A DNA stretch of 64,000 nucleotides, taken from positions 1 through 64,000 of the IMG/VR virus record IMGVR_UViG_3300048446_000526, one strand, 5' to 3'. Shown piece after piece: positions 24,092-44,000 of this stretch (position 1 is its first letter; each line of letters starts with the position of its first letter). The translations under genes were made by a program, and so were the position numbers. This DNA is from a virus. The notes under the pieces were generated by a model, which saw only the letters and a program-made list of their open reading frames with translations, was not told where the DNA came from and made no database searches.

Positions 24092-27000
24092 ATGGCATCA
24101 TTTGATATAACTGCACAAATTAATCTGAGAGGGCCAACGAATGTCAAGAAGATTGCTGCTGACATTCGTAGGCAACTTTCTACTGTTACTACAGGTAGCG
24201 TAAAATTAAATATTGACCCAAAGACCAACCAACAAGTTAATCAACTTAACAAGTCATTTCAGCAGTTTAACAATACTTTAAAGCAGACAAACACTACTGC
24301 TAAACAAGCAGCCGCAAGCCTTAATCAATTAGGTTCTGCTGTTAATACAGTTAACACTAATGCTAGGGCAACCACCAACGCACTAAATCAAGTACAAACT
24401 GCAAATCAAAAAGTGGCAACTAGCACTAAACAAGTAGCCCAAAACGCCCAAGCCGCAGCAACAGGTTTCGATAAACTTGGTAAAAATATTGGTCGTCGTA
24501 TCACAGACTTTTTAGCATTTAGAGCAGTGTCTACTGTGATTGGTGGTTTAAGTTCAGCCATAAGTCAGGCAGCAGGAAACTTTATTGACTTTGAAAGAGC
24601 ACTTGCTAAAGTTCAGCAGGTTACAGGAGGAACGAATGCGTCTATTCAAGTCTTGTCCAACACCATTAATAACGCAGCCGTTGCAACAGGTTCAGCCGCT
24701 AAAGAACTAGCAGAGGTTACAGTAACTTTATCTCAGGCTGGTTTAAGTGCCGATGATACAGCGACAGCGTTAGAGGCTCTAGCACAAACAAAGTTAGCAC
24801 CTACATTTGGAGACATAAAGGATACAGCGGAAGGTGCTATTGCTATTTTAAGACAGTTTGGATTAGAAGCAGATCAATTAGGAGATGCACTAGGTAGCAT
24901 AAATGCTGTAGCAGGTCAGTTTGCTGTTAGTTCAAGTGATGTTATTGTTGCTGTTAAACAAGCGGGTGCTGTGTTTGCAAGTTCAAGCAGAGGAGTTGTT
25001 GATGCTGAGACTGCATTGCAGCAATTTATTGCAACATTTACTAGTGTTAGGCAGACTACGCGAGAAAGTGCAGAAACTATTGGTACTGGTCTTAAAACTA
25101 TTATCACTAGATTACAGAGACTTGATACCATAGAATCATTAAAAAACTTTGGCATTGAACTTACAGACCTTGAAGGTAAGTTTGTAGGACCATTTGAGGC
25201 CATCAAAAGATTAAATGAGGGATTAAAGAATCTTGATACTAGAGACATTCGTTTTGGTGCCATCATTGAAGAACTTGGTGGTTTTCGTCAGGTCGGTAAG
25301 GTCATTCCTCTTATTCAACAATTTGCTGTTGCACAAGAAGCACTAAAGGTGGCACAAGAAGGGCAGGGTTCTATATCAGATCAAGCCGTTATCGCACAAA
25401 AAACTCTAGGCTTTGAAGTTGCACAAACAGCAGCACAATTTCAAAAGTTAATTACAACAATAGGCAACAGCAGTGCTATTCAAGGAACAGTAAGGGTTGT
25501 CTTAGAATTAGCACAAGCACTTCTTTCAGTAGCAGACGCATTAAGTGATATATTGCCCCTGCTTCTTGCAGTAGGAACTAATGCTGCTATTGCAAGCATT
25601 GCAAGTGTTGGAAAAGGCATCGGTAAGTCTTTTGGGTTTAATCAAGGAGGAGTAGTACCAAAAGGCTATGCTAGTGGAGGTTATGTTCCGGGTTCAGGAA
25701 ATCGAGACACTGTACCAGCAATGCTGACTCCCGGTGAGTTTGTTATTCGCAAAAAAGCAGTACAGGCTATTGGCGTTGATAAATTAGGAGCAATGAACCA
25801 AGGAGGAGCATCTACCGTAACACAAGCCAAACACATGGGAGGCAGAATACAAAAGTTTGCAACTGGTGGACAAGTAGCAGTCGATTATGTTCAAAGCAAG
25901 CCTGACGCCGCCACAGAAAAACAGTTAATAGGAAACAATATAATCAATTCTATTAATAATCTTGCAAATTTCTTTAGTCCTGAAGCAAAGAATGTATCAG
26001 AAAGAGCCGATCCTAAGAATGTTGTTCCTAACTATTCTGGTATGGTTGGAGGAATCTTTGAAAAAGCAGTTGAATTAGTAGCAGGAGTTACAGTACCCAA
26101 GTCAAAAAATAATCAGGTATGGGACTATCCTGCTGGACTTGGAGATACCGAACTGTTTAACTATGTACCAAGTTTAAATAGACCTACAGACGCTAAAAAC
26201 AGTGTTAATAGCAATGCTGTTATTGACAAAAAACTACAAGCACATTACAACAACGCTAAAGGTTCAGAAAAATTAAGAACTAAATTTGGTATTGTTGTAT
26301 TTGATGAAGGCGTAGATTATGATTATACTTTTGATCCTTCTTATTTCAAAGAACGAGCATTAGACAAAGATTCTGTAAAGAAAGCAAGAGGAGGCTTGAT
26401 ACAAAATTTTGTTGACGGAGGCGAAGCAATACCTATAGCAAAATCAGGCCGAATCAAAAAGAAAGATTTAGCAGATGCCACTACGCCACAACTAGAACAA
26501 CTATTAAAAAATCCAGCAGTTATAAGCAATCCTTCTACTACACAAGCAATTAACAGCGAACTAGCAAAAAGAGGAAAAGAAGCCAAGGCAGAAAAATTAG
26601 GGGTTGTAGGCATACTTCCTATAAACTACGCTAAGGACTTAGCACCCGCAGATTATGGCGGTACGTTTGCTAAAATCTATGCTAGAGGCTTGCCACAAAA
26701 ATATGAAGAAACCGTACTCAATATCTCTAAAGGACTAAGAGGGGTTGTAGACGAGGCAGCAAGAGGATTAGGTGAAGACAATCCACAGGCTCTTTCTCCT
26801 GAACAAGAAAAAGCAACCGGACTAGAAAACGTACAAGGAACTGTTTTTGAAGCAGTGCTTTCAGCCCTTGGTGCAAGAGGCGGGAGCGTACAAAATCAAG
26901 CCATTGATTACCAAAATGGTCTTGGTCCTGCTGCAAGAATATTTCCGGGTATTGGTCCAGATTGGCCTACAGAGGTCAAACGAGATGTAACTGGTGCTGG

Positions 27001-30000
27001 TATGAGTAGGGCAAAAGGAGAGTTTGCCAGATACTTTAAGGAAAACGCACAAAATAAAAGCATAGGAGGAGCAATACAAAGATTTGCTACCGGAGGCAGA
27101 GTAAATGATAAAGCAGGACTGAAGATTAAAACTACCGGAGGAAGCACAATCACTTCTACTTTTGAAGAAGGCCAAACTAGTTCTGGAGAAGTGGTGGCAC
27201 AGAATATAGGCAAAAATTTATTTTCTGTTGTTGCTGCTCAGGCATCAGGTGGTGGAGGAAGGGCTTTATACGATGCTGCTATGAAACAAGCGACAAGACA
27301 AGGAGGAAGTTTGGTTTCAGATAGAAGCAGAGTTAGTTCATCGGCCTTAAATCGTATTTGGAATACATACTATGGTACGGGTAAGAGTAAAACAGGCCAG
27401 AGAGTTGGCAGGCAACCTGTACCAGAAGACATGCTTTATACAGGTGCGTTCTTTAAAGATTCAGATTTTCCAAGCCCTGATCCTTCAACATGGCAAGGTA
27501 AGGCAGTGTCTTTGCAGTATGCATATCAACAATTTGCAGATGGTGGAGCAGCATCAGGAGGAGATACGGTTCCTGCTATGTTGACTCCCGGCGAATATGT
27601 TATTAATAAAAAAGCAGCAAAACAAATTGGTTTACCCAAACTTAACCAAATGAATTATGCTGATAGGATTAAGGGATATGCAACAGGCGGGCCTGTTGGT
27701 CCGGTGCAGTACTTTAACAATGGAGGATCACCTGCTTCCGGTTCTGCTCCTGCCAGCAATCCTTGGGTAACTGCCGCAAAGATTAATTTGACTGCTGCGA
27801 AACTTAATCAAAAAAACGCAACAACTAATAGTAAGACAGCGGCTACAAACGGGCAAGCAGCAAATACAACCTCGAACAGCGTAAACAATATTCCTAAAGA
27901 AATGGGTATTGGAGCAAGACTTGCTTTCGGGCTCATAGGCCCGCTTATTGAACAAGCAATCGTAAAAATAGCACCAAATAGTGCTATTGCTGCTGGTGCT
28001 GGAGAAGGTATTAGTCAGGGTATTGTGGCTTCTTCAACGTCTAAAGAACTTCTTGGTGGTTTAAGTGGAGCGGCAAAACTTGCCGCTGGAAGGTTTGGAA
28101 AGTTTGGAAAACTTTTAGTTACTAGTGGGAAATTTTTAGAGAAATGGACCGGGACAATTACAACAGGAATAGGCCTCTTCGCTGGTTTTAACGGGTTCCT
28201 TAGTGGTCAATTAAACAAAAGTATAGAACTATTAGCCCTAAGAACCACTGAAGCAGGAAAAGCGGCAGAAGAGGCATTTGCAGGTCTACCGGGAGTAATA
28301 GCAAAAATTGGTACTAACGCAGAAGACTACAATGCCATATTATCAGACGGTGGTGCAAAACTAGCAGATATGATTACAGCAGCAGAAGCACAGAGACAAA
28401 AATCCCAACAAAAAAACCAAGGAGGATATTTTGGTGCAGCATTTAGAGGTCTTGGACTTGAAAGTGAGGAAGGCAGAGAAATTAGAGAGGCTCAAGGAAG
28501 AGACATAGACAGAGAAGCATTTAGGGCAGCAGGTGATTTAGCAACCAAGCAACTGCTGGCGATTGTTTCATCGGGCGACAGCGTAGAAGAGGCATTTGGG
28601 GGCAACAAAGTCGCTTTGGATAGTTTCAAGAGAGCCATAGCACTTACTGATCTTGCATATCAAAAAGAAGAGAGAAGATTACAGGATTTAATTAATAAGG
28701 CTGGAGCACAGTCGGCAGCAGGTCAAGCCTATACAGAAGAACTTAGAAAGGCTCGTGAGGATGCTTTCAAAAAAAGAGCAGCCGATGTTGACGCAGCAAT
28801 AGCATCCCAAAAACTCAAGAAAGAAATAGAGGAGCAAAGAAAGGCTTTAAATTTAGCAACAGTAGCCATTGCAAACTATACCATAGCCTATAACAAGGGT
28901 GCTGACCAAGCAGCATTTGCGTTTAAAAAACTGGCTAAGTCAGCAGATCGTATGGCTGAAGGACTCAGTGGAACTGATCCAAGTCAATTATTTGCTGATA
29001 ACATCAATGTTATACAAAACCCTGAACTCTTTAATCAAACAGACAACACGCTCGCTCTTGAACCTCTGAAAAATATATTAGGAGGTAATCGAGATGCTAT
29101 TCAGGCATTTACAACTCTTCCCGCTGAAATTGCAGGAGCACTGCAAAGAGCCGTTAATCAAAACCCTGAAAACAATGCACAAGGTGCTGCAATCATACAA
29201 GGTGAAATAGACCAAGTTCTCGCTGATAAGTTTGGTAGCAATAGTCTGTTCGCTAGGACACTGAGCAATAGCATAAAAGGTTTAATAGCAGAAGCACAAG
29301 GAAATCAAGATGGTGAATTTAATGCAGCAGCATTGATCAAAGGCACTACGGAGATTATAGAAAAGTTTGGTGAAGATGTTAAAAAAGGTTTAGTAAAAAG
29401 TTTAGAAACCATTCAAGAGGCATTCGGAAAATTAGCACAATCTTCTGCTAGACTTTTCCAAGCACAAAACAATTATGCTAATGCGGTCAGGAATAGTGTT
29501 ACAAGTCAATTAAAACTTAATCAAGAGATTAAGGAGGCATTATCAGAAGTTCGTCAACCTAGAAGTATATCTTCAATAAATGATACAAGTGGTGTTTCTC
29601 AACAACAAGTTAGTAATGCTGGGGACTATTTCCAGCAGTTGGCTATTATACAGCAGGAGCAAACCAGACTCAATGTAGAGCAAGTCAGGCTGACACAAGA
29701 AGGCATAGACAAAGACGGTGAAAACGCCACAGAAATCGCTACTGCTATAGGAGCCAACGAAGCAGCCCTAGCAAACCTAAATGCTAATACCAAGAATTTA
29801 CAAGCCGCTTTACAAGATAAATTAGGTCAACTTCAAAGTGAACTAGGAAGTAGACTAGCAGACCTGAAAGCGGAACAAGCAGCAGCAGAAAGTATTTTTG
29901 AAAGCCTGTTAAAGGATGAAGGAGATACTAATCAAGGCATATCAAGGGCGTTGCAGGTAGCAAGCGGTCAGGGCGTTGGTAATCTTACCGGAGACGAGGC

Positions 30001-33000
30001 TATTCGTGTATTGAAAGATATTAAGCAGTTGCAGGCTGCTGGTATTATAGAAAACAATAAAGAGACAAGAGAAAATGTAGTAGGGGTTCTTGGTGAATCA
30101 AGAGGACTTGGTAATTTTACTGGCTTAGGACAAGAAATTATAGATAAGATTATTAATGCACCGGGAGAGGATGATCAGGTTAAGGCCTATGTAGCAGAAA
30201 TACAAAGAACTAATATTGCTATTAATCAACTTACATCTGCTTTGGCTTTCACAGAATTTAGCAATGCCTCCAAAGCATTGAATATTTCACAGGACGCACT
30301 AAGAGTTTCTATAACAACACTTAACGATACTATAAAGTCGGAAATAGGTAAAATTAAAGCCAACGGAGGACAAGACGTAGAAGGGATTACTAATGAACCA
30401 GAAACAAAAGCAAAAGGAGGTTTAATTTATCGTTCAAGCGGTGGTGGTACACAAAAGGGAGTAAATTGGCAACCTAGAGGAACAGACACTATTCCAGCAA
30501 TGCTCACTCCGGGTGAATTTGTAGTAAATGCAAAAGCCACATCGCAAAATAGAGGTCTTCTTGAGTCTATAAACAGATCGTCTGGTGGTCCTGTATCACC
30601 TGCTAGAAAAAGTACTGGAGGTATTCTTTACAGAAATGCTGGAGGAGGCACTGATAGTTCTTCAACAGAGAGTGTTGGATCAATACTTGATGGACTTAAT
30701 GCAAAGCAGATATTAAATCTCTTGAAAGAAGCAGACTTTATGAAAGAAGGGGGTGCGTTGAACAGCATTAGAGATTGGACATCCAATACAGCAAGTGCCG
30801 TTAAGTCAGCCATAACCAAAAGAGCAAGCGGAGTTTATGGAGGTTTTAAGAATTTTGGAAAAATTAAAATTCCTACATGGATGGATGACGCAGTTAAAAA
30901 CGGCCTTTTAAGTGAAGATGTAGTAGCAGGTTTAGCCGATAAACCATATGCGGTTACTAAATTCCTTAGAGGAAAAATAGATTCTCTTACTGCTGGCCCA
31001 GTTGCACAACGAATAGGACAATTTACTGGTGGGGCTTACAAGTTTGCAAGTAATAAACTAGGCTTACTGGCTCAATCTAAGTGGATTAAAAATATTCTAG
31101 GTCCAGCAAAGAGTGTTCTTAAATATATTCCGAAACTTGGCTCATTCCTTGGTAATTCTCCTGCTTCAAGTCTTGCAAGCAAAGGACTTGCGTGGGCAGG
31201 TCTTGTTGAGCATATGATATCAGGTGCTTATGCAGGAGTTAATAGAAGTCAAGATTTGCAAGATTCGGGAGTTAGTCCTTTGTCGTTTCAAGGAATAATG
31301 TCTCCTTTGGCTGAATTTCTTGCAGGAGGAACCGCTGACGGTGCTTTGCCTCCAAACGCAACAAAAGAGCAAAAGGCAGCATGGATGGAAGGAACCAAGA
31401 ACGGAAAAATTCCTCGATACAATTCGGCTAGTTTTCAGGCATGGGGAACCGCAAGTCTAAGTAATCTACTTAGAATGGTTGGAGGAATGGGTACTGGTTT
31501 TACTCTTGCTGCTCAATATGCCCCAGCGGCAATGCCTTATTCGGGAATGATTGGTGCTGCTGTTGGAGGCGGCATAGTTGTTGCTGGTCAAACTTTCCGA
31601 ACCCTTGAAGAAATCGCTGGTCTTTGGGGAGATCAACCAGACCTTGCTCAAACAAGAAGACAAGAACAACAAAATGAAGACTCGAAGCAAAGTTTCGTTG
31701 GCGACACTAAAGACCAACTACCGGTTCTTGGTGACTTGCAATACAACAGGGCTGTCTTTGCAGGACAAAAGAGAGGAAAACTCAAAAAATATGAGAATGA
31801 TAAAGCCAGATGGAAAGAGGTTGAAAAACAAGGTGCAGCAGTTAAAGTTAATGATGTAGATGCGTGGGCTTACGTAAAAAGTAAATATGAAGCCGGTTTA
31901 CAATCGCATAAGTTTGATGTAGAAGATGGTAAATTTTTAAGAAACCTTATTCCTGTAAAACAGCAAGGTTATCTGTGGGATCAATATAGCGACGAAGATA
32001 TACAAAAAGCCTATACCGCTGTTATGCTGGCTTCAGAAGAGAAGTGGAAAGACTTACCTCTCATAACATCCCTTAATCCTAATAAGAATATTAATTTAAC
32101 TTATGGTGATAATATTAAAAACTTGAGGGCTGTTGCAGAAAGCACACAAACAAGATTATTTGGAGACGGTGAGGATAGACCAGCAGATGAAAATTATTTT
32201 GAAGGAGATGATAAGTTAAGAAGTATTATGGCTCAAAAGGGCGAATTGTATAATGCGAATGCCTCTTGGTTGGAAACATATGTTGGTAGCGAAACAAATC
32301 AAGATAAAAGCGAAATGGATTTCTTAGATTACGAATCTAGTAACTTCACTAAGATATCAGAATACAATAAGGCAATAAAGGCTAGGAGAGCAGAACTTAT
32401 TCAAGAAGAGAAGGATAGGCGAATTGCAGAAGCAGAGACAAAGAAGGCAGCAGAAGACAAGCAAAACGAAGAAGTCAGAAAGTTCGGAGGACTACAACAG
32501 AATTTACAGTCTCTTACATCAGCAGAAAATCCCGACTTTGAGTTTATGCCACAGGCTCCATTTATTAAGCCTAAATCAAGGTTGATACTTCAGCGGCAAA
32601 AAGATAGTTTGGCAATGAGACAGAAACTTGCAGAGACACCTGTATTTTACCCAGATGAAAACGATAATCTTGTACAAGGACCACCAATGGGTGAGTACTT
32701 AGATTGGAAGACAGGTGCGTTTACAGATAAGCCTGAGTTAATTAAAACTAAAAGCGAATATGATTTCTGGTCAGGAATTGGTAATGCTATAGTAGAATAC
32801 AGAAAAAATTACAGAGTCGGTGGTGACCTGTATGATGTGCTTCCTACAGTCCATCCATCTCAGGCTATATTAAAAGACATTGCTGGTGGCACTCAAAGTG
32901 AGCAAATTGCTTTTAGAAACTTTATGAATCCAAAAGCAACAGACGCTAAAACTTCAACCGCTGGTGCTTTTCAAGAGTTGTTCACAGATTATCCTACAGA

Positions 33001-34696
33001 ATTTGCGAATATAACTAAACTTTCTGAAGAAGAGAGCAAACTACCTCAAAAAGAACAAGAAAAACTTATACAAGGCAGAAGAGATGCACTCATTGCTAAA
33101 CTTGCTACCCAAAACGGCTTACTGGATGGTCAAGGTCAGCAGGCAATTTACAATAAAATCGCATTGGCATTATCTCCTCTAGCAGGCGACTATTATGAAA
33201 ACATTAAGGGAGTAAATTTTTATACTGATAAGTACACTCCAGAGCAAATTTGGACTGCTAGTAATCAGAACGGTCAGTTTGGTCTTGGTCTAACATCAAT
33301 GATAGGGGCTATGGGTGTAGACAATGCAAAGGAACTATATCCTCAACTTGCTGGTGCTAAAAAAGGTATGGATTTTGCTGAACTCAAAGGAAATTACCAA
33401 AAGAGAATTCAAAACCTGTATAAGGTTCGTGGAGATGATCCTTTTGAAGAACAAGACTTACAAAGACAAAGAAGCAAAGATAAAGCCCAAGCAGATGCTT
33501 ATGCCAAACAAGAACGACAAAGACTCAAGAAGGTTGAAAACTATGCTAGACTTAATCTTGTAGGTCAAACTTTTCCTGAAGACCCTCTTGAGTATGTAGA
33601 CTTTAGACAAAAACAAACAGATGCTTTCTCAAGGTCTGTAGAAGGTTTTGGTCCAACTTATCCTGTGCCTTCTGATCTTATAGCATTCAAAAACGGTGGT
33701 GTGTCTGAAAGATGGGTAAGAAAATTATTCACTCTTAAAGATCAAGCATCTAATTTTGAACTTAGTCAAAAAACAGCAGAAGCACTACTCAGATACAAGG
33801 CTCAGTTCGGTGAAGGCACTGACGCAGAACAATGGCTCTCTAAGGTTTACCAACTTGATGGCAAAATTGATATTGATGATATATATGCAAGTACTCCGGG
33901 TGAAGGTGGTGCAGCAAGTGCAGCCTCAGATTTATCCAATATTCAAACTAAGATAAGTGATGTAGAGAAGGTAGTAGCAAGCATAAAAGGTAAAGCAAAT
34001 TCTAAAAACGCTGTAGCAAGAAGAAAACTAGAAAATTCTATGGTAGACTTGAAGGTTGCTGGGCTGTGGAATCCTGCTCAGGGCGTAGACCAAAACGCAC
34101 AGAGCCTTATGAGTCTGAGTCAGGGACAATTTGCAGCAGACCCACTTTTAGATAAACTCAAAGAATATGGCGATATCAACCTTTCTGATAAATTCCGTAA
34201 TGCTAAGGCTATAGGCCTAGCAACAGGAGGGATGGTTCCAACAAGCGTATTTACTCCTAGAGGCACAGATACCGTACCTGCTATGCTCACACCGGGAGAG
34301 TACGTTGTAAATAAGAAGGCCGCAGCAGAAAATAGACCTTTACTAGAGTCTATTAACGGTAAAAGAAAGTCCAGAAACCCCAGAAGTTCATACTATCAGG
34401 ACGGTGGTAATGTGAGCAATAATGGTGTAAATAATGTTGTCGCAATAGATGTGCAGGAAATCAGCAAGTTTGTTACCTCATTTGACAGATTTAGTAAAGA
34501 ATTAGCCAATTTGAATATTCCTTCGGAAATTACTCTACAAGGAACACACACAGTTGATGTTAATGTAAACGGGGCTCAAGTCTTGAACGACTTACTTAAC
34601 GGCCCGATTGGTGAAATGGTAGCCAGCGAAGTAGAATTGGCGTTCCAAAGACAAAGCAACGAATCAGAAGGGGCAGTACCAAATCCATTTAGTTAA
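24092..34696 (+). CDS. tail tape measure protein with inserted enzyme-like modules
   Basis: The 3,534-residue protein starts after an AGGAGA site. Residues about 150-480 match the TP901-type tape measure core (FERALAKVQQVTGG; QAGLSADDTATALEALAQT; TTRESAETIGTGLKTIITRL). From about residue 515, glycine-rich motifs of the type GGxIQxFATGG alternate with globular segments. Four copies of DTxPAMLTPGExV lie at residues 539, 1158, 2132 and 3393. Between the first and second copies are two PD-(D/E)XK-like segments and one GNAT-like segment, listed separately. A hydrophobic helical region near residues 1270-1390 and another near 2300-2530 could become membrane-inserting. The rest is polar and helical. 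The tape measure sets tail length and is ejected into the host first, so attached modules would be delivered too. The tape-measure call is firm, module functions are inferred. Confidence 0.88.
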   Translation: MASFDITAQINLRGPTNVKKIAADIRRQLSTVTTGSVKLNIDPKTNQQVNQLNKSFQQFNNTLKQTNTTAKQAAASLNQLGSAVNTVNTNARATTNALNQVQTANQKVATSTKQVAQNAQAAATGFDKLGKNIGRRITDFLAFRAVSTVIGGLSSAISQAAGNFIDFERALAKVQQVTGGTNASIQVLSNTINNAAVATGSAAKELAEVTVTLSQAGLSADDTATALEALAQTKLAPTFGDIKDTAEGAIAILRQFGLEADQLGDALGSINAVAGQFAVSSSDVIVAVKQAGAVFASSSRGVVDAETALQQFIATFTSVRQTTRESAETIGTGLKTIITRLQRLDTIESLKNFGIELTDLEGKFVGPFEAIKRLNEGLKNLDTRDIRFGAIIEELGGFRQVGKVIPLIQQFAVAQEALKVAQEGQGSISDQAVIAQKTLGFEVAQTAAQFQKLITTIGNSSAIQGTVRVVLELAQALLSVADALSDILPLLLAVGTNAAIASIASVGKGIGKSFGFNQGGVVPKGYASGGYVPGSGNRDTVPAMLTPGEFVIRKKAVQAIGVDKLGAMNQGGASTVTQAKHMGGRIQKFATGGQVAVDYVQSKPDAATEKQLIGNNIINSINNLANFFSPEAKNVSERADPKNVVPNYSGMVGGIFEKAVELVAGVTVPKSKNNQVWDYPAGLGDTELFNYVPSLNRPTDAKNSVNSNAVIDKKLQAHYNNAKGSEKLRTKFGIVVFDEGVDYDYTFDPSYFKERALDKDSVKKARGGLIQNFVDGGEAIPIAKSGRIKKKDLADATTPQLEQLLKNPAVISNPSTTQAINSELAKRGKEAKAEKLGVVGILPINYAKDLAPADYGGTFAKIYARGLPQKYEETVLNISKGLRGVVDEAARGLGEDNPQALSPEQEKATGLENVQGTVFEAVLSALGARGGSVQNQAIDYQNGLGPAARIFPGIGPDWPTEVKRDVTGAGMSRAKGEFARYFKENAQNKSIGGAIQRFATGGRVNDKAGLKIKTTGGSTITSTFEEGQTSSGEVVAQNIGKNLFSVVAAQASGGGGRALYDAAMKQATRQGGSLVSDRSRVSSSALNRIWNTYYGTGKSKTGQRVGRQPVPEDMLYTGAFFKDSDFPSPDPSTWQGKAVSLQYAYQQFADGGAASGGDTVPAMLTPGEYVINKKAAKQIGLPKLNQMNYADRIKGYATGGPVGPVQYFNNGGSPASGSAPASNPWVTAAKINLTAAKLNQKNATTNSKTAATNGQAANTTSNSVNNIPKEMGIGARLAFGLIGPLIEQAIVKIAPNSAIAAGAGEGISQGIVASSTSKELLGGLSGAAKLAAGRFGKFGKLLVTSGKFLEKWTGTITTGIGLFAGFNGFLSGQLNKSIELLALRTTEAGKAAEEAFAGLPGVIAKIGTNAEDYNAILSDGGAKLADMITAAEAQRQKSQQKNQGGYFGAAFRGLGLESEEGREIREAQGRDIDREAFRAAGDLATKQLLAIVSSGDSVEEAFGGNKVALDSFKRAIALTDLAYQKEERRLQDLINKAGAQSAAGQAYTEELRKAREDAFKKRAADVDAAIASQKLKKEIEEQRKALNLATVAIANYTIAYNKGADQAAFAFKKLAKSADRMAEGLSGTDPSQLFADNINVIQNPELFNQTDNTLALEPLKNILGGNRDAIQAFTTLPAEIAGALQRAVNQNPENNAQGAAIIQGEIDQVLADKFGSNSLFARTLSNSIKGLIAEAQGNQDGEFNAAALIKGTTEIIEKFGEDVKKGLVKSLETIQEAFGKLAQSSARLFQAQNNYANAVRNSVTSQLKLNQEIKEALSEVRQPRSISSINDTSGVSQQQVSNAGDYFQQLAIIQQEQTRLNVEQVRLTQEGIDKDGENATEIATAIGANEAALANLNANTKNLQAALQDKLGQLQSELGSRLADLKAEQAAAESIFESLLKDEGDTNQGISRALQVASGQGVGNLTGDEAIRVLKDIKQLQAAGIIENNKETRENVVGVLGESRGLGNFTGLGQEIIDKIINAPGEDDQVKAYVAEIQRTNIAINQLTSALAFTEFSNASKALNISQDALRVSITTLNDTIKSEIGKIKANGGQDVEGITNEPETKAKGGLIYRSSGGGTQKGVNWQPRGTDTIPAMLTPGEFVVNAKATSQNRGLLESINRSSGGPVSPARKSTGGILYRNAGGGTDSSSTESVGSILDGLNAKQILNLLKEADFMKEGGALNSIRDWTSNTASAVKSAITKRASGVYGGFKNFGKIKIPTWMDDAVKNGLLSEDVVAGLADKPYAVTKFLRGKIDSLTAGPVAQRIGQFTGGAYKFASNKLGLLAQSKWIKNILGPAKSVLKYIPKLGSFLGNSPASSLASKGLAWAGLVEHMISGAYAGVNRSQDLQDSGVSPLSFQGIMSPLAEFLAGGTADGALPPNATKEQKAAWMEGTKNGKIPRYNSASFQAWGTASLSNLLRMVGGMGTGFTLAAQYAPAAMPYSGMIGAAVGGGIVVAGQTFRTLEEIAGLWGDQPDLAQTRRQEQQNEDSKQSFVGDTKDQLPVLGDLQYNRAVFAGQKRGKLKKYENDKARWKEVEKQGAAVKVNDVDAWAYVKSKYEAGLQSHKFDVEDGKFLRNLIPVKQQGYLWDQYSDEDIQKAYTAVMLASEEKWKDLPLITSLNPNKNINLTYGDNIKNLRAVAESTQTRLFGDGEDRPADENYFEGDDKLRSIMAQKGELYNANASWLETYVGSETNQDKSEMDFLDYESSNFTKISEYNKAIKARRAELIQEEKDRRIAEAETKKAAEDKQNEEVRKFGGLQQNLQSLTSAENPDFEFMPQAPFIKPKSRLILQRQKDSLAMRQKLAETPVFYPDENDNLVQGPPMGEYLDWKTGAFTDKPELIKTKSEYDFWSGIGNAIVEYRKNYRVGGDLYDVLPTVHPSQAILKDIAGGTQSEQIAFRNFMNPKATDAKTSTAGAFQELFTDYPTEFANITKLSEEESKLPQKEQEKLIQGRRDALIAKLATQNGLLDGQGQQAIYNKIALALSPLAGDYYENIKGVNFYTDKYTPEQIWTASNQNGQFGLGLTSMIGAMGVDNAKELYPQLAGAKKGMDFAELKGNYQKRIQNLYKVRGDDPFEEQDLQRQRSKDKAQADAYAKQERQRLKKVENYARLNLVGQTFPEDPLEYVDFRQKQTDAFSRSVEGFGPTYPVPSDLIAFKNGGVSERWVRKLFTLKDQASNFELSQKTAEALLRYKAQFGEGTDAEQWLSKVYQLDGKIDIDDIYASTPGEGGAASAASDLSNIQTKISDVEKVVASIKGKANSKNAVARRKLENSMVDLKVAGLWNPAQGVDQNAQSLMSLSQGQFAADPLLDKLKEYGDINLSDKFRNAKAIGLATGGMVPTSVFTPRGTDTVPAMLTPGEYVVNKKAAAENRPLLESINGKRKSRNPRSSYYQDGGNVSNNGVNNVVAIDVQEISKFVTSFDRFSKELANLNIPSEITLQGTHTVDVNVNGAQVLNDLLNGPIGEMVASEVELAFQRQSNESEGAVPNPFS
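25706..25753 (+). repeat. tape measure motif copy 1
   Basis: The segment encodes DTVPAMLTPGEFVIRK at residue 539, preceded by a glycine-rich GGYVPGSGNR linker. It is one of four near-identical copies in the protein. Confidence 0.9.
25862..26420 (+). other. inserted PD-(D/E)XK-like module 1 within tape measure
   Basis: This segment lies between the linkers GGRIQKFATGG and GGLIQNFVDGG. It contains a GGIFEK helix (E657), WDYPAGLGD (D678) and RPTDAK (D700, K702). The E, D and D-x-K spacing of 21 and 22 residues fits the catalytic signature of PD-(D/E)XK nucleases. It parallels module 2, which suggests a duplication. No search was run, so this is an inferred fold. Confidence 0.4.
26420..27100 (+). 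other. inserted PD-(D/E)XK-like module 2 within tape measure
   Basis: The segment starts after GGLIQNFVDGG and ends at GGAIQRFATGG. It contains GTVFEAVL (E920), AIDYQNGLG (D939) and WPTEVKRD (E961, K963). Spacings are 19 and 22 residues. The motifs DYxxGLG and PT[DE]xK are shared with module 1. All candidate catalytic residues are present, so an active nuclease is possible if the fold is right. Confidence 0.45.
27100..27540 (+). other. inserted GNAT-like module within tape measure
   Basis: After GGAIQRFATGGRV, the segment has FSVVAAQASGGGGRALYDAA (glycines 1053-1056), a helix, then GGSLVSDRSRVSSSALNRIW (D1077, R1078). This resembles the acetyl-CoA-binding loop and following strand of phage GNAT-like proteins, which often show LYDAAM and PDR-VS motifs. 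It may be an acyltransferase-like fold or a degenerate copy. Confidence 0.4.
27563..27610 (+). repeat. tape measure motif copy 2
   Basis: The segment encodes DTVPAMLTPGEYVINK at residue 1158, just after the GNAT-like module and preceded by FADGGAASGG. Confidence 0.9.
30485..30532 (+). repeat. tape measure motif copy 3
   Basis: The segment encodes DTIPAMLTPGEFVVNA at residue 2132, preceded by WQPRGT and followed by LLESINRSSGG. Confidence 0.9.
34268..34315 (+). repeat. tape measure motif copy 4
   Basis: The segment encodes DTVPAMLTPGEYVVNK at residue 3393, preceded by FTPRGT and followed by LLESING. Its flanks match copy 3, so these two form one subgroup. Confidence 0.9.
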
Positions 34697-34713: not shown

Positions 34714-37700
34714 ATGGCAGACGAATTTACAACAGGTAATTTATTTTTAGGTTCTGGTACTAATGTATCAGAAACAGAATTTGATATAAGGCTTTCTACT
34801 GATGAAGGTCTTTCTACTTTATTTAATGCTAGTGGAGTAGATACTGATTTCCGTGTAAATGCTTCAGGGAAGGTGGGTCTGCACGTAGACGCAGACACAG
34901 GGCGTGTTGGTATAGGCACCGGCAACAATATAGGAGCAGCATTGCATGTAGTTAGCACTTGTGCGAGTGATGGGCTTAGAGTAGAGACCAGAACAGACTG
35001 TCCTACTGGAGTAGAGATTGAATTTATTCACAAACCCCAGACACCTCCAGTAAATGGTTCACTTCCTGTACAAATTAATCTTGCTGGCAGAAATCAAAAC
35101 AGTTCTGACGTAAATTATGCTAGGATTAAAAGTAGAGCACTCTCTACTGCTACAAGTCAGGAAACAGGCGAATTAGTTTTCACTGTGATTAAAGACGGTG
35201 TTGATGTAGATGCACTTGTAATCAATCCATTGACAACTTCTATCGGATCAGAAAACTCACAATCAGGAGATAATTACCTATTCATTGGTAGCAATAACTT
35301 AGTTTCTGGTAATAGTTTTATTATCTTTGGTTCTAATAATACAGGCTTAATAAACAACGGTATACTTTTAGGTGCCGATAACCACATTCATGGAGACAGA
35401 CTGCTAATTGTTGCAGATAACTCTGTTGTTTCTGGAGACCAGAATATTGTATTTGCTTTAGATAGTGAAATTTATGGTGACTCTAACCTTGTTATTGCAG
35501 AAAATGTATTCACTGACGGCGATCAAAACATTGTCTTTGGACACAATACAAATAGCACTGGTGATTTTAATATCTTGCTTTTAAATGACTCAGATAATAT
35601 AGGCAGTAGCGGAGTAGGTTTTGGTAACCAATCTTTAAATGTTGGTAACAACAATGTCTTTGTCGGTAACTTTAATACTGTGGATGGTGATAATGACCTT
35701 ATTATTGGTTCAGAAGTAGAGGTTACTGGTGACAACAATATTCTTTACGGTTCTGAATCTAGTGTCAGTGGTAGCAACATTATTTCTATAGGTGCTGGAA
35801 ACGATGTACTTAATATCGCAAGCGGTGTGTTTATAGGTTCAGATATTGACTTGAGAAACAGCGAAAAGTCAGTTGTAATCGGTTTGGCGAATGCAACAAC
35901 TGGTAGTTTAACATCTAGTGTTATACTGGGCTTAGAAAATGATACTACCAACGGTAGACCAACAGGGGTAATTATTATTGGACAACAGAATACTGTTTCC
36001 ACTATAGCCAACACAACAATAATCGGTAATCAAAATGAAGCCAGTGGTTTGGTCCTGAACAACTTAATATATGGGACTCTTAACTCTGCACCAACAGATA
36101 GTCGTAATAATGTAGTTGTAGGTGTTATGAATAATACCACAGGCAACATATTGTCCGCTGGTACTTTACAGCCTAGCGGTCGTAAAGATGGTACTATGGC
36201 AAATACTGTAGTATACGGTATTAACAACATAGTTTCTGATGTTAGCGGAAGTAATGTTCTAGGTAGCAAAACTTATGCAGAGGGTCAAAGCATCAATGTT
36301 TTGGGTTCTCTTAATCAACTCAAAGGCTCTAATGATACTCAGATATTAGGACATTCTAATTTTAGTGTGGGCAACCACAATACTATTATTGGTAGCCATA
36401 ATGATATTATGGGTTCTCATTCTATACTACATGCCGCATCTGATGATCGTAACCAATTATTTGGTAGCGGTAACATATCTATTGGTAATAGTGAGGCCGT
36501 AGTTAGCGGTATGACTATTGGTTTTCAAAACGCAATGAATGCACCTTTCGGTATTGTTTATGGTAGCGGAAACCAAATAGGTCTGAGAAGACATTTGTTT
36601 ACCGTAGACAACAACGGCAGTACTACACTGAGAGTTAATGGAGATCAAACAAACGTATATGAACCTAGTATGGTAATCTTGCTTGCTATGGTCAATCCTA
36701 CTTCATCAGGTGATAATACCAATATTAAATCTATTCAAACAGTAACCTATAACAACGGAGGAGGCGTAAATGACTATACTGATATAGTTATAGATTCAGC
36801 ACCTTTGTTGCCTTCTACTACAGTCAACTATCAAGTCAACGAATTTTTTGATGAAGAAACCTATCAATTAGGTGATAACAGTGTTATTAGTGGATGGATC
36901 ATGCCTTATCAGTCAGGACAAAACACTGAGATAGACACCATTAATTTTCCAAGATATGGTTACTCATCAATTATACTAGGTAACAATAACAAATCCCTAC
37001 ATGCCAGCGGTTTGATATTTGGTCAAGAAAATAACGTGTCTGGTAGCAGGCACGTTGTAATTGGGAATAATATTTCTGGTTTTTATAATAACGCAGTACA
37101 AATTGGTACTAACAACACTAACAAAATGTATCTAGATGATGATTCAGTAATTTTTAATACTGGTGCTAGTCAAAATGACATTATTTTTAATAGCAGCACA
37201 GAAGGTGTTACGGCTTACTTTGATCTTGACGAAAACAGAGTAGGGATCAACAACGCTGACCCACAAACTACGCTTGATGTTTCTGGCGTGATTACTGCGG
37301 GTGGTATTAAATTACTTGGAGATTTTTCAGAAAATAGTGGCTGGATACCAATTAATACAGGAGACGGCACTGTACAGTGGCAGAGACCAACTACTCTATC
37401 AGGCATAAACAGCGGTATATGCATGAAGGTTAGTGACTATGTTTCTAGCGGATTAGAAACATTTAACTACAACACATCTAGTCAGACTATATTCTTTGAT
37501 CGTAGCAATATCCGTAGAGATGATAGATATGTTTACGATAAAGATGCCGGAGATTCATTAGAAACCGCTATAATGATCGACACAACCGGGATGTTTTTGA
37601 ATATTGATCCTAATGGAAGAGACAATGGATACAACTTTACTGTTTATGGATCGGGAAGCAATGCTCCTTTAAACAACAGAGATGGTACTGATAACGTATA

Positions 37701-39324
37701 TTTAATTAAAACAGATGTGCCTAGAGCAGAAGTACAGTTTACAAATTTGACAGGACTTAGTGGTGCATTTAATGAGTTTATAATTAATGACGCACTTAAA
37801 GTTCCTCCTAATCTTACAGGAACATTCTTGTACTGTGATTCTAATAATGATAATTTGTTACGGTCAAAAGTCACACCTAATTTCAGTATTTTGTTCACTA
37901 GAAACGACAGTTGGCAAACAGGAGAGGCGAGTTTAAGATATTTTTATAATGATCAAGTATTTACTATTGGTGGAGACGGTGAGACCAATGCAGCATTGGA
38001 TGTAGGTTATGAATCGAATGAACCTAATAGTAATATCGTTTTAGCCCATACTCAAGACCAAAGAACAATATTTAATAATCGTAGTTATGGCACAGAGTTT
38101 GTCATTAAAGAATCTGGTGCTTCTAATGGTAATTTCAACGGTTTTCACTACAATACAGAAAGTGGCGTATTAGGCCTTAATGTTAATGATGCAACAGATG
38201 TCGTTAAAGAAGGAACTGCTAATAGTCCTACTCCTTGGTATGACAGAACTAGCAGTCAAGAAACTATGGTAATGTATGCCAATGGTAAGATTCGTGTAGA
38301 AGGTCTGCAAATGGGTGCTGGTGGTGGAACTTTTAATGCGTCTATAAAAGACCAGTTTCTTACAGTGGTTGACGACTACGGCAATATCGGTTTTGCTACT
38401 CCTTCAGTAGATCAAAGTTTTGATGTTAGATTTCCTTTGGCTATTAATGGTCAGACATCTCAAGACGTTACCATGTATGAAATATCTGAAGATGATGAAG
38501 ATGGAAACAGCCTAACAACAAATCAAAGAGGCATGGCTTTAATATGGGAAGGTACTCGTTGGGTTCAAGGTGCTAGCAACGTAGGCTATTGCACCAGACT
38601 TGGTATTCCAAGTGCCTCCACTCCAGACAATTATTATACTTCAGAAGGTAGTAGTTTTGGACCTTATGCAACACTTCCTTCAGGTCAGCAGAACTCATTT
38701 GTGATTGCTGGTCAACCAATCGTTGAAGAAACAGCCCGTAGAGCAAATCCGGGTCATTCAAGAAGTATGCAACAAGAAACCACTATACTAAAAGCCATAA
38801 CAACAGGAACTAATACTGAAGAATTAACTACAAGTTTCACAAAGGGCAGCACTGGCAACGGTGCTACTGGCACTAATACGATTTCTCTTATTGTAAACCC
38901 AGAAATTCCCAACGATATATATCAGCAAGTTGTATGGAAAGTTGAAATTGACTATGTTGTAATGACACAACAAGACGGTGGAAGCGACAGTAACCTTACC
39001 AATCTTGCTGCAACCGTTGGCAAGTACACGGCTGGCTTAAAAATATTTAGTGATGCTCAAGGTCAACGTCAAGCAGGTGCTCTCTTTGGAGGTGTGTTTG
39101 ATAGTGTTCATGATGGAGGAGGACCGGGGAACATATTTGGAGGGCTTGATGCACAAAATGGCCCGATTACTGTTTCAATAGATTCTACTAGTACTCCGTA
39201 TCGTTTATCGCTCAAGACTGTTGGACCGGGAGGTGGTTACACCTCTATTTATGAAGCAGTAGTTAAACTTACACAAATGCAAGTGCCTTGGAAGATGCCT
39301 TTCACAGGGTCCGATCCAAACTAG
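34714..39324 (+). CDS. tail fibre with YadA-head-like beta-roll
   Basis: The 1,536-residue protein has an N-terminal fibre motif (DTGRVGIGTGNNIGAALHV) near residue 65. Residues about 185-630 are made of repeats of roughly 14 residues with the form NxxIxGxxNxxxG, as in NNNVFVGNFNTVDG and DNNILYGSESSVSG. That period and pattern are those of the left-handed beta-roll of YadA-type trimeric adhesins. A second fibre motif (ENRVGINNADPQTTLDVSG) follows near residue 843. The C-terminal part is beta-rich and ends with a probable tip domain. Such fibres are trimeric. An AGGAG site precedes the ATG, directly after the tape measure, so it may sit at the tail tip or as a side fibre. Confidence 0.8.
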   Translation: MADEFTTGNLFLGSGTNVSETEFDIRLSTDEGLSTLFNASGVDTDFRVNASGKVGLHVDADTGRVGIGTGNNIGAALHVVSTCASDGLRVETRTDCPTGVEIEFIHKPQTPPVNGSLPVQINLAGRNQNSSDVNYARIKSRALSTATSQETGELVFTVIKDGVDVDALVINPLTTSIGSENSQSGDNYLFIGSNNLVSGNSFIIFGSNNTGLINNGILLGADNHIHGDRLLIVADNSVVSGDQNIVFALDSEIYGDSNLVIAENVFTDGDQNIVFGHNTNSTGDFNILLLNDSDNIGSSGVGFGNQSLNVGNNNVFVGNFNTVDGDNDLIIGSEVEVTGDNNILYGSESSVSGSNIISIGAGNDVLNIASGVFIGSDIDLRNSEKSVVIGLANATTGSLTSSVILGLENDTTNGRPTGVIIIGQQNTVSTIANTTIIGNQNEASGLVLNNLIYGTLNSAPTDSRNNVVVGVMNNTTGNILSAGTLQPSGRKDGTMANTVVYGINNIVSDVSGSNVLGSKTYAEGQSINVLGSLNQLKGSNDTQILGHSNFSVGNHNTIIGSHNDIMGSHSILHAASDDRNQLFGSGNISIGNSEAVVSGMTIGFQNAMNAPFGIVYGSGNQIGLRRHLFTVDNNGSTTLRVNGDQTNVYEPSMVILLAMVNPTSSGDNTNIKSIQTVTYNNGGGVNDYTDIVIDSAPLLPSTTVNYQVNEFFDEETYQLGDNSVISGWIMPYQSGQNTEIDTINFPRYGYSSIILGNNNKSLHASGLIFGQENNVSGSRHVVIGNNISGFYNNAVQIGTNNTNKMYLDDDSVIFNTGASQNDIIFNSSTEGVTAYFDLDENRVGINNADPQTTLDVSGVITAGGIKLLGDFSENSGWIPINTGDGTVQWQRPTTLSGINSGICMKVSDYVSSGLETFNYNTSSQTIFFDRSNIRRDDRYVYDKDAGDSLETAIMIDTTGMFLNIDPNGRDNGYNFTVYGSGSNAPLNNRDGTDNVYLIKTDVPRAEVQFTNLTGLSGAFNEFIINDALKVPPNLTGTFLYCDSNNDNLLRSKVTPNFSILFTRNDSWQTGEASLRYFYNDQVFTIGGDGETNAALDVGYESNEPNSNIVLAHTQDQRTIFNNRSYGTEFVIKESGASNGNFNGFHYNTESGVLGLNVNDATDVVKEGTANSPTPWYDRTSSQETMVMYANGKIRVEGLQMGAGGGTFNASIKDQFLTVVDDYGNIGFATPSVDQSFDVRFPLAINGQTSQDVTMYEISEDDEDGNSLTTNQRGMALIWEGTRWVQGASNVGYCTRLGIPSASTPDNYYTSEGSSFGPYATLPSGQQNSFVIAGQPIVEETARRANPGHSRSMQQETTILKAITTGTNTEELTTSFTKGSTGNGATGTNTISLIVNPEIPNDIYQQVVWKVEIDYVVMTQQDGGSDSNLTNLAATVGKYTAGLKIFSDAQGQRQAGALFGGVFDSVHDGGGPGNIFGGLDAQNGPITVSIDSTSTPYRLSLKTVGPGGGYTSIYEAVVKLTQMQVPWKMPFTGSDPN
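35272..36590 (+). repeat. approximately 14-residue (42 bp) beta-roll repeat block
   Basis: Successive units such as NYLFIGSNNLVSG, DQNIVFGHNTNSTG and DNDLIIGSEVEVTG follow one another with few gaps, then become irregular toward the end with longer inserts. The DNA copies are diverged, so the repeat is visible mainly in protein. Confidence 0.75.
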
Positions 39325-39345: not shown

Positions 39346-41025
39346 ATGCCACCAAACAGAAATGGCCCTAATATACAATATGGAAATTTTTGGTTTGATC
39401 CGATCAGTGGATTTCCAGTTCCACAGGTAAGTATCAGTCAAAATGTAAACAGAAGCAGTGCCGGTGTGGTGATTGGCTACGAGTCATCAGTTACACTAGA
39501 AGGTATTATTTATGGATTTACAGGCTATAACAATGACTGTCAAAGTCCTAGTCAGTTAGATCAAGATACCGGCTTTGCATTTCTTATGGAGCAGGTTGAA
39601 ACTCTTAGCAAAGTTTTTTCAAGCGATTTTAAAGCACTAGAGATTACTTGTTCGACAGATGAAGGAGACCAAGTATTACTAAGTGCTGATGGTACGGGCA
39701 ATGTAACAAAAGTAAATAGTATAAACTTTAATCAGTCTCAAGACTTATGGGCGATTACTGTGCCTTACAGTATTGAAATAGGTGTAATTACGAGTTCTGG
39801 TATTGCTGGTGGTGGAGAAGGCTATCCTAGCGGTGGCAACAGGCCGTATTTTATTAGCAATTACACAGATAATATACAGATCAATGTAGACACAAGTAAG
39901 AGTTACTATCTTGCAGACGGCAACAATCCGATTAAACAACCATTTCCTAATCCTTTTGATTCGAGTACATCATTCGATGGTGGAAGCAGAATGGTTCCAT
40001 TTGAATCATCTACCGGATACCCTGTCTACACTGTAACAAGAACCATTGGTGCTGTAGGCATAGCGACTTCAGGACTTAATCAAGTAGAGAATGCAAAAGA
40101 TTGGGTAGCCAATCAGTTACTCGTTTATCCCATTGGAACATTAACACAAGACCTAGACCTGTATAATAGAGAAAGAAATATTTCTTCTGATGAAGCAGGA
40201 GGCTCTTATCAGGTTACTGAAACTTATTTAGCAACTAGAGCAGGCACACAAAACGGTTACTTAGAAACTTTTGAAGTTAGTCAAGATATTAGCACTAACG
40301 GAAATAGAACGGTCACAATAGCAGGACAGATACAAGGATTAGAGTGTGGCAATATAGGGATTGAACCTCCAGTAGGTACTTATACTGGTGTTGTTTTTCC
40401 GACACACACGGGAACTTCTCCTGATTGCACAAAATACGATAATGCTCTTAGTGGCTACCTGATTGAGCAGAGCAACTTTTTTCAGCGTTGCATTAATACA
40501 ATGCCTTACTATCAGCCTGTAGAGGACACATCGAAGTTTTTTACAAGTCCTAATTTTTTAAATCCTAATCCTACTAATAAAAGAGACGGTTTTAATCCAG
40601 CAAATGGTACAGTCAGTTACACTTGGTCCTATGATAATAGACCCGGATCGCTTATTGATGGTGCTCAAGGCGAAAGATTAGATATTAACGATAATTATGC
40701 GGTACGTTCTGTTGCAAATGTGTATGTAATAGGTAGGAGATTAGGACCAGTAACACAGGATTTGGGTACTTATACAAAGCCTACTAGAAGAGTAACTTAT
40801 TCAGCAAGGTTTCCTAGACCGAGTGGATTTGAAGGCTATAATTTTGATGTATTGGTAACAAATGATATTGTGAACCTTGTGGCTTTATATGATCCTGCAA
40901 GAGTTAACCCCACTCCAACTAGTGGGCCAGTAGTCAGTAATATAAGATCGGACAATTATTCATTCAACCCTATTGATGCAAGCGTAAGTTATACGGTGGA
41001 ATGGGAATATACAAAATGTAATTAA
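39346..41025 (+). CDS. putative tail tip / distal tail structural protein
   Basis: The 559-residue protein starts after TAGGAGATATAG. It is beta-rich with no membrane segment. Recognisable stretches include YPVYTVTRTIGAVG, NAKDWVANQL, then LYNRERNISSDEAGGSYQVT and a final YSARFPRPSGFEGYNF. This arrangement is like structural proteins that follow the tape measure in large marine phages, but I cannot name a family. Its location between the beta-roll fibre and a hub-like giant suggests a distal tail or tail-tip ring component. Confidence 0.55.
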   Translation: MPPNRNGPNIQYGNFWFDPISGFPVPQVSISQNVNRSSAGVVIGYESSVTLEGIIYGFTGYNNDCQSPSQLDQDTGFAFLMEQVETLSKVFSSDFKALEITCSTDEGDQVLLSADGTGNVTKVNSINFNQSQDLWAITVPYSIEIGVITSSGIAGGGEGYPSGGNRPYFISNYTDNIQINVDTSKSYYLADGNNPIKQPFPNPFDSSTSFDGGSRMVPFESSTGYPVYTVTRTIGAVGIATSGLNQVENAKDWVANQLLVYPIGTLTQDLDLYNRERNISSDEAGGSYQVTETYLATRAGTQNGYLETFEVSQDISTNGNRTVTIAGQIQGLECGNIGIEPPVGTYTGVVFPTHTGTSPDCTKYDNALSGYLIEQSNFFQRCINTMPYYQPVEDTSKFFTSPNFLNPNPTNKRDGFNPANGTVSYTWSYDNRPGSLIDGAQGERLDINDNYAVRSVANVYVIGRRLGPVTQDLGTYTKPTRRVTYSARFPRPSGFEGYNFDVLVTNDIVNLVALYDPARVNPTPTSGPVVSNIRSDNYSFNPIDASVSYTVEWEYTKCN

Positions 41026-41041: not shown

Positions 41042-44000
41042 ATGGCAGTAGACAACGGGCCTATAACTTGTAGTAATTTAAGCGTAAATCAAGTAGGGCC
41101 GTATAGCCAAACTCTGGTTTTAGGGTGCAGTGCTACAAATCTAAGTATGAACGTAGGATGGGGTTCTACCAGCAGTACTTGTTCTATTACGATGGTACGA
41201 GACACCTGCCGTCATTGGAGAGATGAAACGTATGATGAATCTAATACCTACTGGCAAAGTCTTCTTCAGCAAGGACCGGACAATCCAATAGGAAATGCGT
41301 TACCAAAAGGCCCAGATGGAAACATAGACCCATCTCAATCAGACCCAAGAAGAACTTGGCAAAAAAATATAGCCCGACAACAAGTAGCAGAACAAAACTA
41401 TAAATTAAATAATCAAGACAGCAATCAAGCATACGGTGACTTTGGAAAACAAATGTGGTATTCTAATTTGGCTGGTGGTTTTGGCATGGTAAATTGGCTT
41501 GGCCCAGACCCCGGATTTTTAGCCAACTCAGACAATGCTGCTACACAGATTAATAATCCCGGTGCTACTGTAGGCTATGATGTAAACGGTACTTGTGTTT
41601 TTGTAAAAATGGAAGACTTGTTTTTTGGAGGAATAATTAAAAGTTGGGAAAACAGAGCAGCCCAAGGAGGAGTCACTACTTCTGTACAATTAGAAAGTAT
41701 GGCAAGCCTACTTAAAGGCACTAGTATGATTATAAATAACTTCAATGGTTCTGTTGGTAGCAGATATTATTCTGGATTTACTGATATTCCTATTGTTACT
41801 GTACCTAGTAATGATGTAGATGGAGATGTTGGTGTTGGTGCCAATATATATAACGGTAGTGTCAGAGGAGGTAATCACCCTAATTTAATCAATTTACAAG
41901 GCCTTGCCAATTTTGTTTATGGTTTTAGTGGTGCTTCTTGGGCAGGAAGCAAGGGTGTTAGTGCTGCTGATATATACTTTATGATTAATAGTGTTCTTAA
42001 CCCAAGTAATATATCTCTACCAACAAGCCCGTACTTTCCTTATGGTGCTTTAGTTGGAAGAAGTTTAATAGACAGATTTACTGGTAGTTTTATTGACACA
42101 AATCAACAGGTTCTATCTTATGGAAATACACAGATTTCTTACGAAGCATTAGGATGGATGCCTACAAAACTCGCTATCGACAACAGGTTCAGACCTATGT
42201 TTTCATTAGATTTAAGCGAAGTTCCTGTTCCTCCAGCAGACATATATTTTACTGAAGACAGTCTAACCATTACAGCATTTTTAGACGCTATCTCTCAAGG
42301 AGGCCAATATGATTACGTCATAGACTGTGCTCCAAGTACCAACCCTCTGTATAGTGCTTGCATCAAGGTTAGAACAGTCAATCGTTCAATAGCGGTTCCT
42401 CCTAATACTCTTGGCAATGCACTTGCTACTAGAGATGATTTTCAAAATGTAAATTATGGTGAAGAATTTGATACGGCAGATGTTCGTGAGGTTATAGTAG
42501 GTGCTCCTCAAAAAAGACTGATGCAGTTTACAACTATAGGCAAGTCTATATTTCAAGAAACAAGAGTTTACGATCCTTTTGTTGAAAGAGGAGGAGGACT
42601 CGTAAGAGGTTCTGATGTAGTTGTTCCTTATGGTTCGCAAATGGTTACAGAGTTTGATCCTGACCCAGAAGTAGAACTAGATACTGTTAATGTCCAGCAA
42701 GGACAAAATTCTTTCCAGCCTAATCTGATAGACATAAGATGGTATAAATCATATAGGGTTGGTGCTGGCGTGGTGGCACAACAAACTACAACAGATCAAT
42801 TTTTTAGAAATTACAATAATGGTGGTAGCCAAGGAGTCAAAAAACTAGGCAACTATGGGCTAAAAACATTTGTTCGTATGCCTGCTGGAATTGACCAAGA
42901 GGCAAACTCATATCCCTTGTGTTCAGACTTAATTAGTCCTTTCTACGGCAAAGACAGCACAGGCAACATTAGGCTTGTTTACTTTGATCGAAAGATGGGT
43001 CAAATTCAAGTTATGACAAGTGTTTTTGATTGGAGACTATGGTGCAGTTATGCAACACCAGATTTTGCACAGCCAACACCTAATAATGCGAACGGTGAAG
43101 GACAAGGCCAAGGAGGAGAACCCGGAGACGATACCATAGGCGATGACGAACCAACCAATCCAGTTTTTAGAGTAGTAGGCACACAATGGGTTATAACAGA
43201 AACCGAAATCAGAGCAGCAATGTCTGGTATCGACATTTTCTTTCATTATTTATTTGATGAATATAAAAATGGTTTTGTTACCATGACTGCTAAATACTTT
43301 TATGATTACATAGCAGAGGCTTTTTGTACGAATGTTGCGGATCAATTACTAAATGGTGGTCAATGGTGGGAAAACACCAAAGAGATAGACTCTAGTAAAG
43401 CAGCATATCCTAATGCAGATGGTATATTTATAGCCGATGGACCAGATGGAGCCACAGACAGTAGATGGGTTCCAGCATTAACAGACTATAGAGTTTTTCA
43501 AGAACTTAAAAAATTAATGAAGTTTCTTGCTGAAGATATTGGTGAATATCATGCAAAATCTTATTTAATCAGAATGCCGCAGGTATACTCTTTTACAGAT
43601 CGTGCCGGAAACAGACAATACAATTACCAGCCATCTGATTTTGGATGGGAAGAAGAAGGTAATCCTTTGGATGACACTATGGTAATAGGTTCTTCAGCAT
43701 CACGAACGCTAGCAAACGGAAATGGTACTTTTGGTCCTATGGTGGGCTTTCTAGCAAATCTAGAATTTGATGGACAGAACCAAACTTTTACTGAAGATGA
43801 AATCACCCAAATGAAATTACCGGAACAATGTCCAGAAGAACCTCCTCCACAGCAACCAGAAGCAGAAGACCCAAAAGAAGATGCTGCTGGTGATAAATTA
43901 CCAAACGGAGCAAACCCTCCTAATGATCCCGGCAGGCCTCCTCTTCCGAAAAATGCACAGCAAGGACCAGCAGCACAATCATCAAGAAATACTGTTTCTA

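Follow-up and report, generated by a model that had tools for sequence, protein, structure and literature searches.

What is the conserved stretch that sits inside the tape measure protein of this virus, between a nuclease-like region and a recurring PAMLTPGE motif? The window analysed here, a stretch of 64,000 nucleotides (positions 1 to 64,000 of IMG/VR virus record IMGVR_UViG_3300048446_000526), encodes on its plus strand an open reading frame (ORF) of 3534 amino acids (24092-34696). It contains a PhageMin_Tail domain (residues 194-393, 24671-25270; Pfam, E 7.4e-22) and matches several PHROG profiles named 'tail length tape measure', such as phrog_1272 (E 3.3e-23); domain and profiles together identify it as a tape measure protein (TMP). 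Four PAML-type motifs are distributed along the chain, starting at residues 539, 1158, 2131, and 3392. The first two read DTVPAMLTPGE (residues 539-549, 25706-25738, and residues 1158-1168, 27563-27595), followed by a DTIPAML variant, TDTIPAMLTPGE (residues 2131-2142, 30482-30517), and by TDTVPAMLTPGE (residues 3392-3403, 34265-34300). Three modules, designated M1 (residues 644-759, 26021-26368), M2 (residues 840-982, 26609-27037), and M3 (residues 1003-1147, 27098-27532), lie between the first and second motif. M3 is framed by a GGAIQRFATGG linker (27065-27097) and a FADGG linker (27533-27547). The original prediction placed a GNAT-like domain between GGAIQRFATGG and the second DTVPAMLTPGE on the basis of two peptides, and both placement and peptides hold: GGGGRALYDAAM begins at 27248, SDRSRVSSSALNRIW spans 27317-27361, and both are in frame with the TMP. 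Elsewhere in the window, a second giant ORF of 3475 amino acids (46-10473) has weak tail-fibre PHROG matches, and large ORFs near the tail genes (11886-15356, 34714-39324, 39346-41025, and 41042-46954) have no PHROG match at E 0.001.

Searched directly against Pfam and PHROG, M3 returned nothing significant (best phrog_18444, E 0.043), and the same holds for tblastn against INPHARED at E 1 and 10 and for peptide-pattern scans of viral contigs. PF00583 had no match in the virus record, compared with matches in 14 of 14 control genomes. The query motif was then recast as DNA patterns, with which viral contigs were scanned twice. Of the 39 stretches obtained, 36 encode clear members of one family with M3; the other three (L002, L003, and L022) do not, and were excluded from the eight-copy profile described below, as was the window's own locus. 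The family comprises stand-alone proteins of about 200 amino acids as well as copies inside giant TMP-like ORFs on viral contigs. M3 thus has stand-alone relatives within its phage family, of which it is the single member in the whole 87,412-base virus record. A profile of eight copies from long ORFs (six from TMPs, two from the multi-GNAT ORF of L023) matches M3 at E 2.7e-20, where the best of 200 shuffles reached 0.2. Because the profile copies had been found with a query-derived pattern, the motif was masked in a control; the same profile still matched at E 2.4e-9 (best of 500 shuffles 0.6), the all-family profile at E 6.9e-5, and the stand-alone profile at E 0.0036. The homology therefore outlasts removal of the motif.

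The family was further delimited by a separate scan with a different, C-terminal motif, which gave 32 confirmed loci, all within ORFs 1915 to 6100 amino acids long, several of these ending at the locus edge. The closest relatives are 71% (L076/L078, within L079/L080) and 62% (L077, within L081) identical to M3 over the module, and L014 shares 40% identity over 89 amino acids. A pattern scan of genome contigs found three contigs in bacterial metagenome-assembled genomes (L073, L074, and L075), all carrying stand-alone copies; these are perhaps phage contigs within the bins. Stand-alone members also occur in multicopy sets, with ten matches in G007 (L007/L010), six in G006 (L021), and five in G005 (L026), many of them arranged in tandem. 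The 1383-residue ORF of L023, on the minus strand, holds three GNAT-like domain copies, and its identity as a TMP is putative. INPHARED at E 0.01 had no match for the relatives L014 and L007. Across 31 family members there was no credible Pfam, NCBIfam, or PHROG family and, at the curated cut-offs of Pfam and NCBIfam, no GNAT family; a PDB sequence search with the 31-member alignment was empty up to E 10. DUF7570 (2 of 31 members, best E 0.007), phrog_5910, which has no name given (2 of 31, best E 0.0014), and three NCBIfam matches with one member each (best E 0.026) were taken as chance.

The fold of M3 was addressed with two AlphaFold models. The first, built from a 31-row alignment (mean pLDDT 66.2), consists of strands 7-13, 17-24, 28-36, and 41-49, helix 54-67, strand 71-74, and helix 81-93. 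Confidence is highest over residues 11-80 (blocks of 78-93), drops to 67 and 52 in the last helix, and stays below 50 over residues 96-147. The second model, covering M2 and M3 from 14 contiguous rows (mean pLDDT 59), shows the same order of elements with a pLDDT of 43-62 over M3. Helix 81-93 and the C-terminus are poorly resolved by the modelling. Both predictions contain the beta2-beta3-beta4-alpha3-beta5-alpha4 core of GNAT proteins, helix 4 having a pLDDT of 52-67 in the first. The low-confidence tail of the first model coincides with a C-terminal extension (SPDPSTW..SLQYAY, 27383-27538) that is conserved in the TMP copies.

Structure searches with these models mostly returned acetyltransferases. 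For the first model, Foldseek gave weak matches in the PDB, starting at E 0.25; Ard1 and further acetyltransferases rank near the top, interspersed with unrelated entries. VIA listed 50 matches with Z-scores of 8.2-6.2, 43 of which name an acetyltransferase or acyltransferase, GNAT, or an abbreviation thereof; the other seven are presumably GNAT-fold proteins as well. A Z-score below 8 may reflect a merely common arrangement, although for M3 nearly all listed entries share one fold. With the M2-M3 model, Foldseek matched 1r57 at probability 1.00 and E 0.018, 46 of the 50 matches listed name acetyltransferase, GNAT, GCN5, or Ard1, and VIA gave Z-scores of 8.7-7.3 over about residues 172-261; none of its matches covered M2, an absence without bearing on the fold of that module. 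No Foldseek match of M3 fell below E 0.001 in the PDB searches or the viral structure library; among the first 50 entries of the latter, some were named N-acetyltransferases and one 'large polyvalent protein', beside unrelated entries. Profile alignment (hhalign) against 24 ordinary GNATs set the GGGG loop in register with the P-loop RxxGxG at low probability (30.5 for the long-ORF, 10.8 for the all-family, and 6.1 for the stand-alone profile). The corresponding P-values were 5e-4 (long-ORF profile, including L023), 0.003, and 0.006, compared with 0.44 for an M2 control. The assignment of M3 to the GNAT fold type, as originally predicted, is supported by the modelling, since both predictions show a small GNAT core and acetyltransferases make up most of the structure matches.

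The module is set apart from the rod of the TMP by its conservation. Compared with L079, M3 is 70.3% identical over 145 amino acids without gaps, M2 64%, M1 54%, and PhageMin_Tail 77%, whereas the rod reaches 31.5% and 28.7%. On the strength of this difference and of the beta-rich models, we reject a helical bundle continuous with the rod. Between the M3 copies of the window and L079, dN is 0.19 and dS, which is near saturation, 0.97 (NG86). In a tree of the family, all 24 TMP copies form one group with a support of 0.77, and the L023 copies fall outside; such a single group is consistent with the domain having entered TMPs once and spread from there.

Whether the fold is still that of an enzyme depends on its candidate active-site residues. 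Among 66 distinct copies, Tyr58, Arg76, and Ala83 are kept in all 66, and Asp75 and Trp88 in 65. The conservation of D, R, V, S, A, and W is partly biased, because those columns stood in some search patterns; Y58, G52, and G54 were outside all of them, and the C-terminal-motif loci were drawn with another motif. The P-loop equivalent of M3 is ASGGGG (27242-27259), set against the GNAT consensus Q/R-x-x-G-x-G/A (excerpt of PMC4964394). Its GxG glycines are kept in most copies (G52 in 60 and G54 in 61 of 66), but Ala takes the first position in the window, as it does in 48 of 66 copies, and no copy has Gln or Arg there. Of the proposed likeness to an acetyl-CoA loop, the glycines are thus present, in putative P-loop register, and the Gln/Arg signature is absent from all 66 copies. 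Strand 5 closes with S-D-R (27317-27325), and the Trp at 27359-27361 aligns with the GNAT Tyr in the all-family profile. Tyr serves as the acid in 62% of the characterised GNAT enzymes tallied in the same excerpt (PMC4964394).

These deviations would suit a catalytically dead GNAT fold, namely a tail component with a structural or binding role that packs on tail-tip or host-envelope proteins, or recognises a ligand, without acyl transfer. The Ala at P-loop position 1 and the Trp at the Tyr position both point this way, and Eis offers a precedent, one of its GNAT domains being inactive and without Gln/Arg in the P-loop (PMC4964394, excerpt). However, the near-invariance of Tyr58, Asp75, Arg76, and Trp88 in TMP and stand-alone copies alike is site-like, even with D, R, and W in some search patterns, and the multicopy stand-alone relatives suggest a function outside tails. 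Furthermore, in the same excerpt (PMC4964394) one enzyme departs from the usual P-loop, and an Asp on strand 5 is put forward as the base, so the deviation of M3 lowers the case for an enzyme and spares that for the fold. With Asp75 at the end of the strand-5 equivalent, unusual chemistry is possible, and so is a dead fold. We regard the inactive fold as unlikely, but as an explanation that deserves real weight.

M3 adjoins two modules that are read as nuclease-like from their conserved residues. M1 (...E...D...PTDAK) has relatives in L045, L065, and L079, which mostly keep E, D, and DA[K/R]; the relatives of M2 (FE...IDY...TEVK) keep E, D, and [E/D/Q]xK. The shared E..D..[E/D]xK signature may be the PD-(D/E)xK nuclease motif. 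The helix and strand order of M2 in the M2-M3 model fits an alpha-beta core, and M1 and M2 are linked by an iterated profile, a procedure that can include the match itself. Neither M1 nor M2 has a PDB-sequence match or a match to a named PHROG enzyme. M3, distinct from the rod and next to this pair, takes its place as the third module that had been proposed, and the window TMP thereby combines several enzyme-type domains in one phage polypeptide, as polyvalent proteins do.

The position of M3 is an exchangeable slot, bounded by FAxGG linkers and the PAMLTPGE motif, that is empty in some related TMPs and filled in others. In L136, NYFAKFAIGG is directly followed by SVQDTVPALLTPGE; in L142, NYFAKFAFGG is followed by about 320 residues that include a GNAT and end in KKFAKGG, and then by SAEDTVPALLTPGE. 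Other related TMPs carry different sequence at this position. M2 abuts the next PAML motif within 40 amino acids in 16 of the 50 loci, near-identical ones included, that have M2 and a later PAML motif. A Pfam scan of the module regions (23 stretches from 22 TMPs) found ADPrib_exo_Tox, an ADP-ribosyltransferase (ART) domain, above cut-off in six TMPs (L046, L134, L146, L164, L171, and L179) and a cytidyltransferase-related domain above cut-off in one (L115) and below it in L064; the remaining 15 TMPs had nothing above the Pfam cut-off. The TMP of L046 unites the ART match with M2 and a GNAT. Reading by eye, we noted a HAD-phosphatase-like stretch (DFDKTLV, LSARPQS) just before M2 in L059 (8207-9151), and similar stretches in the TMPs of L051, L053, and L055.

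The neighbourhood of GNAT and nuclease could also be explained as a modification and attack pair, with a GNAT that, like Mom, acyl-modifies DNA, and a nuclease directed at host or rival DNA without the modification. M2 is indeed present in 17 of 19 distinct assessable GNAT-bearing TMPs, a count that excludes L023 and four TMPs with an open 5' end (L044, L049, L056, and L067) and takes L080 together with L079. The order is reversed in L081, with the GNAT at residues 542-605 and M2 at residues 877-1011. Mom domains of jumbo phages are reported to be typically fused to REase-fold nuclease domains (PMC7824862, excerpt). Against this, the best 80 of 178 loci selected by the TMP N-terminus contain 57 distinct TMP relatives (11 unassessable, 46 assessable), and among the 46 assessable ones M2/M1 occurs in 35, a GNAT in six, and both in five; M2 is common without a GNAT, and its frequency alone therefore predicts the co-occurrence. 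There is also no obvious way for a TMP to modify packaged DNA, which leaves such a pairing improbable. That M3 is an ordinary coiled-coil or linker of the TMP with a chance motif is next to untenable: the glycine-rich flanking linkers and the insignificant direct searches would allow it, but it is contradicted by the masked-motif control, the stand-alone homologues, the beta-rich models, and conservation far above that of the rod.

We lean towards the view that M3 is an independent, small GNAT-fold accessory effector that is delivered with the TMP and acts on the host. M3 occupies the exchangeable slot between the nuclease-like module and the second PAMLTPGE motif and, being built into the TMP, would travel with it in the tail. 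Upon ejection of the TMP it might reach the host envelope or cytoplasm, where it could bind acyl-CoA and, side by side with the nuclease-like modules, modify some host component or affect it in another way. A folded domain may be hard to accommodate within the tail tube, which counts against an effector. That M3 is delivered cargo is nevertheless likely by analogy, because in lambda, during injection, a proximity enzyme at the inner membrane robustly labelled the TMP and no other phage protein (PMC13190303, excerpt), a TMP-related nuclease effector is known (PMC11126660, excerpt), and polyvalent proteins, which are presumed to be injected, include GNATs and ARTs among their domains (PMC5512222 and PMC7824862, excerpts). 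More broadly, and as a tentative proposal, the TMP in this clade may also be an effector carrier, its exchangeable enzyme modules swapped at FAxGG beside PAMLTPGE and delivered before the first phage gene is read. Such modules would be nuclease-like, GNAT-like, and ADP-ribosyltransferase, perhaps joined by HAD and nucleotidyltransferase types.

Polyvalent proteins and other proteins of the virion already provide examples of injected phage enzymes. Should enzyme modules indeed be swapped in and out of TMPs, a structural protein that is very common would supply host-takeover enzymes not yet catalogued, and these could be found by a simple rule: look between PAMLTPGE motifs and split at FAxGG. 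The action of ejected tape measures inside the host would also become a directly testable question. Among the matches listed in our literature search, no paper describes a phage TMP with an internal GNAT or nuclease module, though one may be in print.

Several known systems resemble parts of this arrangement. Small GNATs (1r57, 102 amino acids; YjdJ, 5i0c, 89 amino acids) are like M3 in the predicted strand-helix-strand-helix core, the GxG loop, and helix 4; in contrast, M3 has no sequence-family match and no P-loop Gln/Arg, carries Trp at the Tyr position, and is embedded in a TMP. The TMP of mycobacteriophage TM4 reportedly carries a peptidoglycan hydrolase motif. It would thus place an enzyme activity within a TMP, as proposed here, but as a cell-wall hydrolase, neither GNAT-like nor nuclease-like. 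Polyvalent proteins likewise unite several domains of enzyme type in a polypeptide that presumably enters the host, with GNAT and ART both named in the excerpt of PMC5512222; their GNATs are placed in RimI-like families and are likened to M3 by description only, and the text makes no use of the term 'tape measure'. Tme, from a Streptomyces contractile injection system, is a TMP-related effector with an endonuclease domain, like the window TMP, but its domain is EndA-like and C-terminal, in a non-phage TMP and, as far as the excerpt of PMC11126660 describes it, without a GNAT. The phiKMV-like Rac, finally, is a phage GNAT acting on host RNA polymerase; in the excerpt of PMC7824862 it appears without a tail-protein context, and by description it is a proposed host-takeover tool, the role that we suggest for M3.
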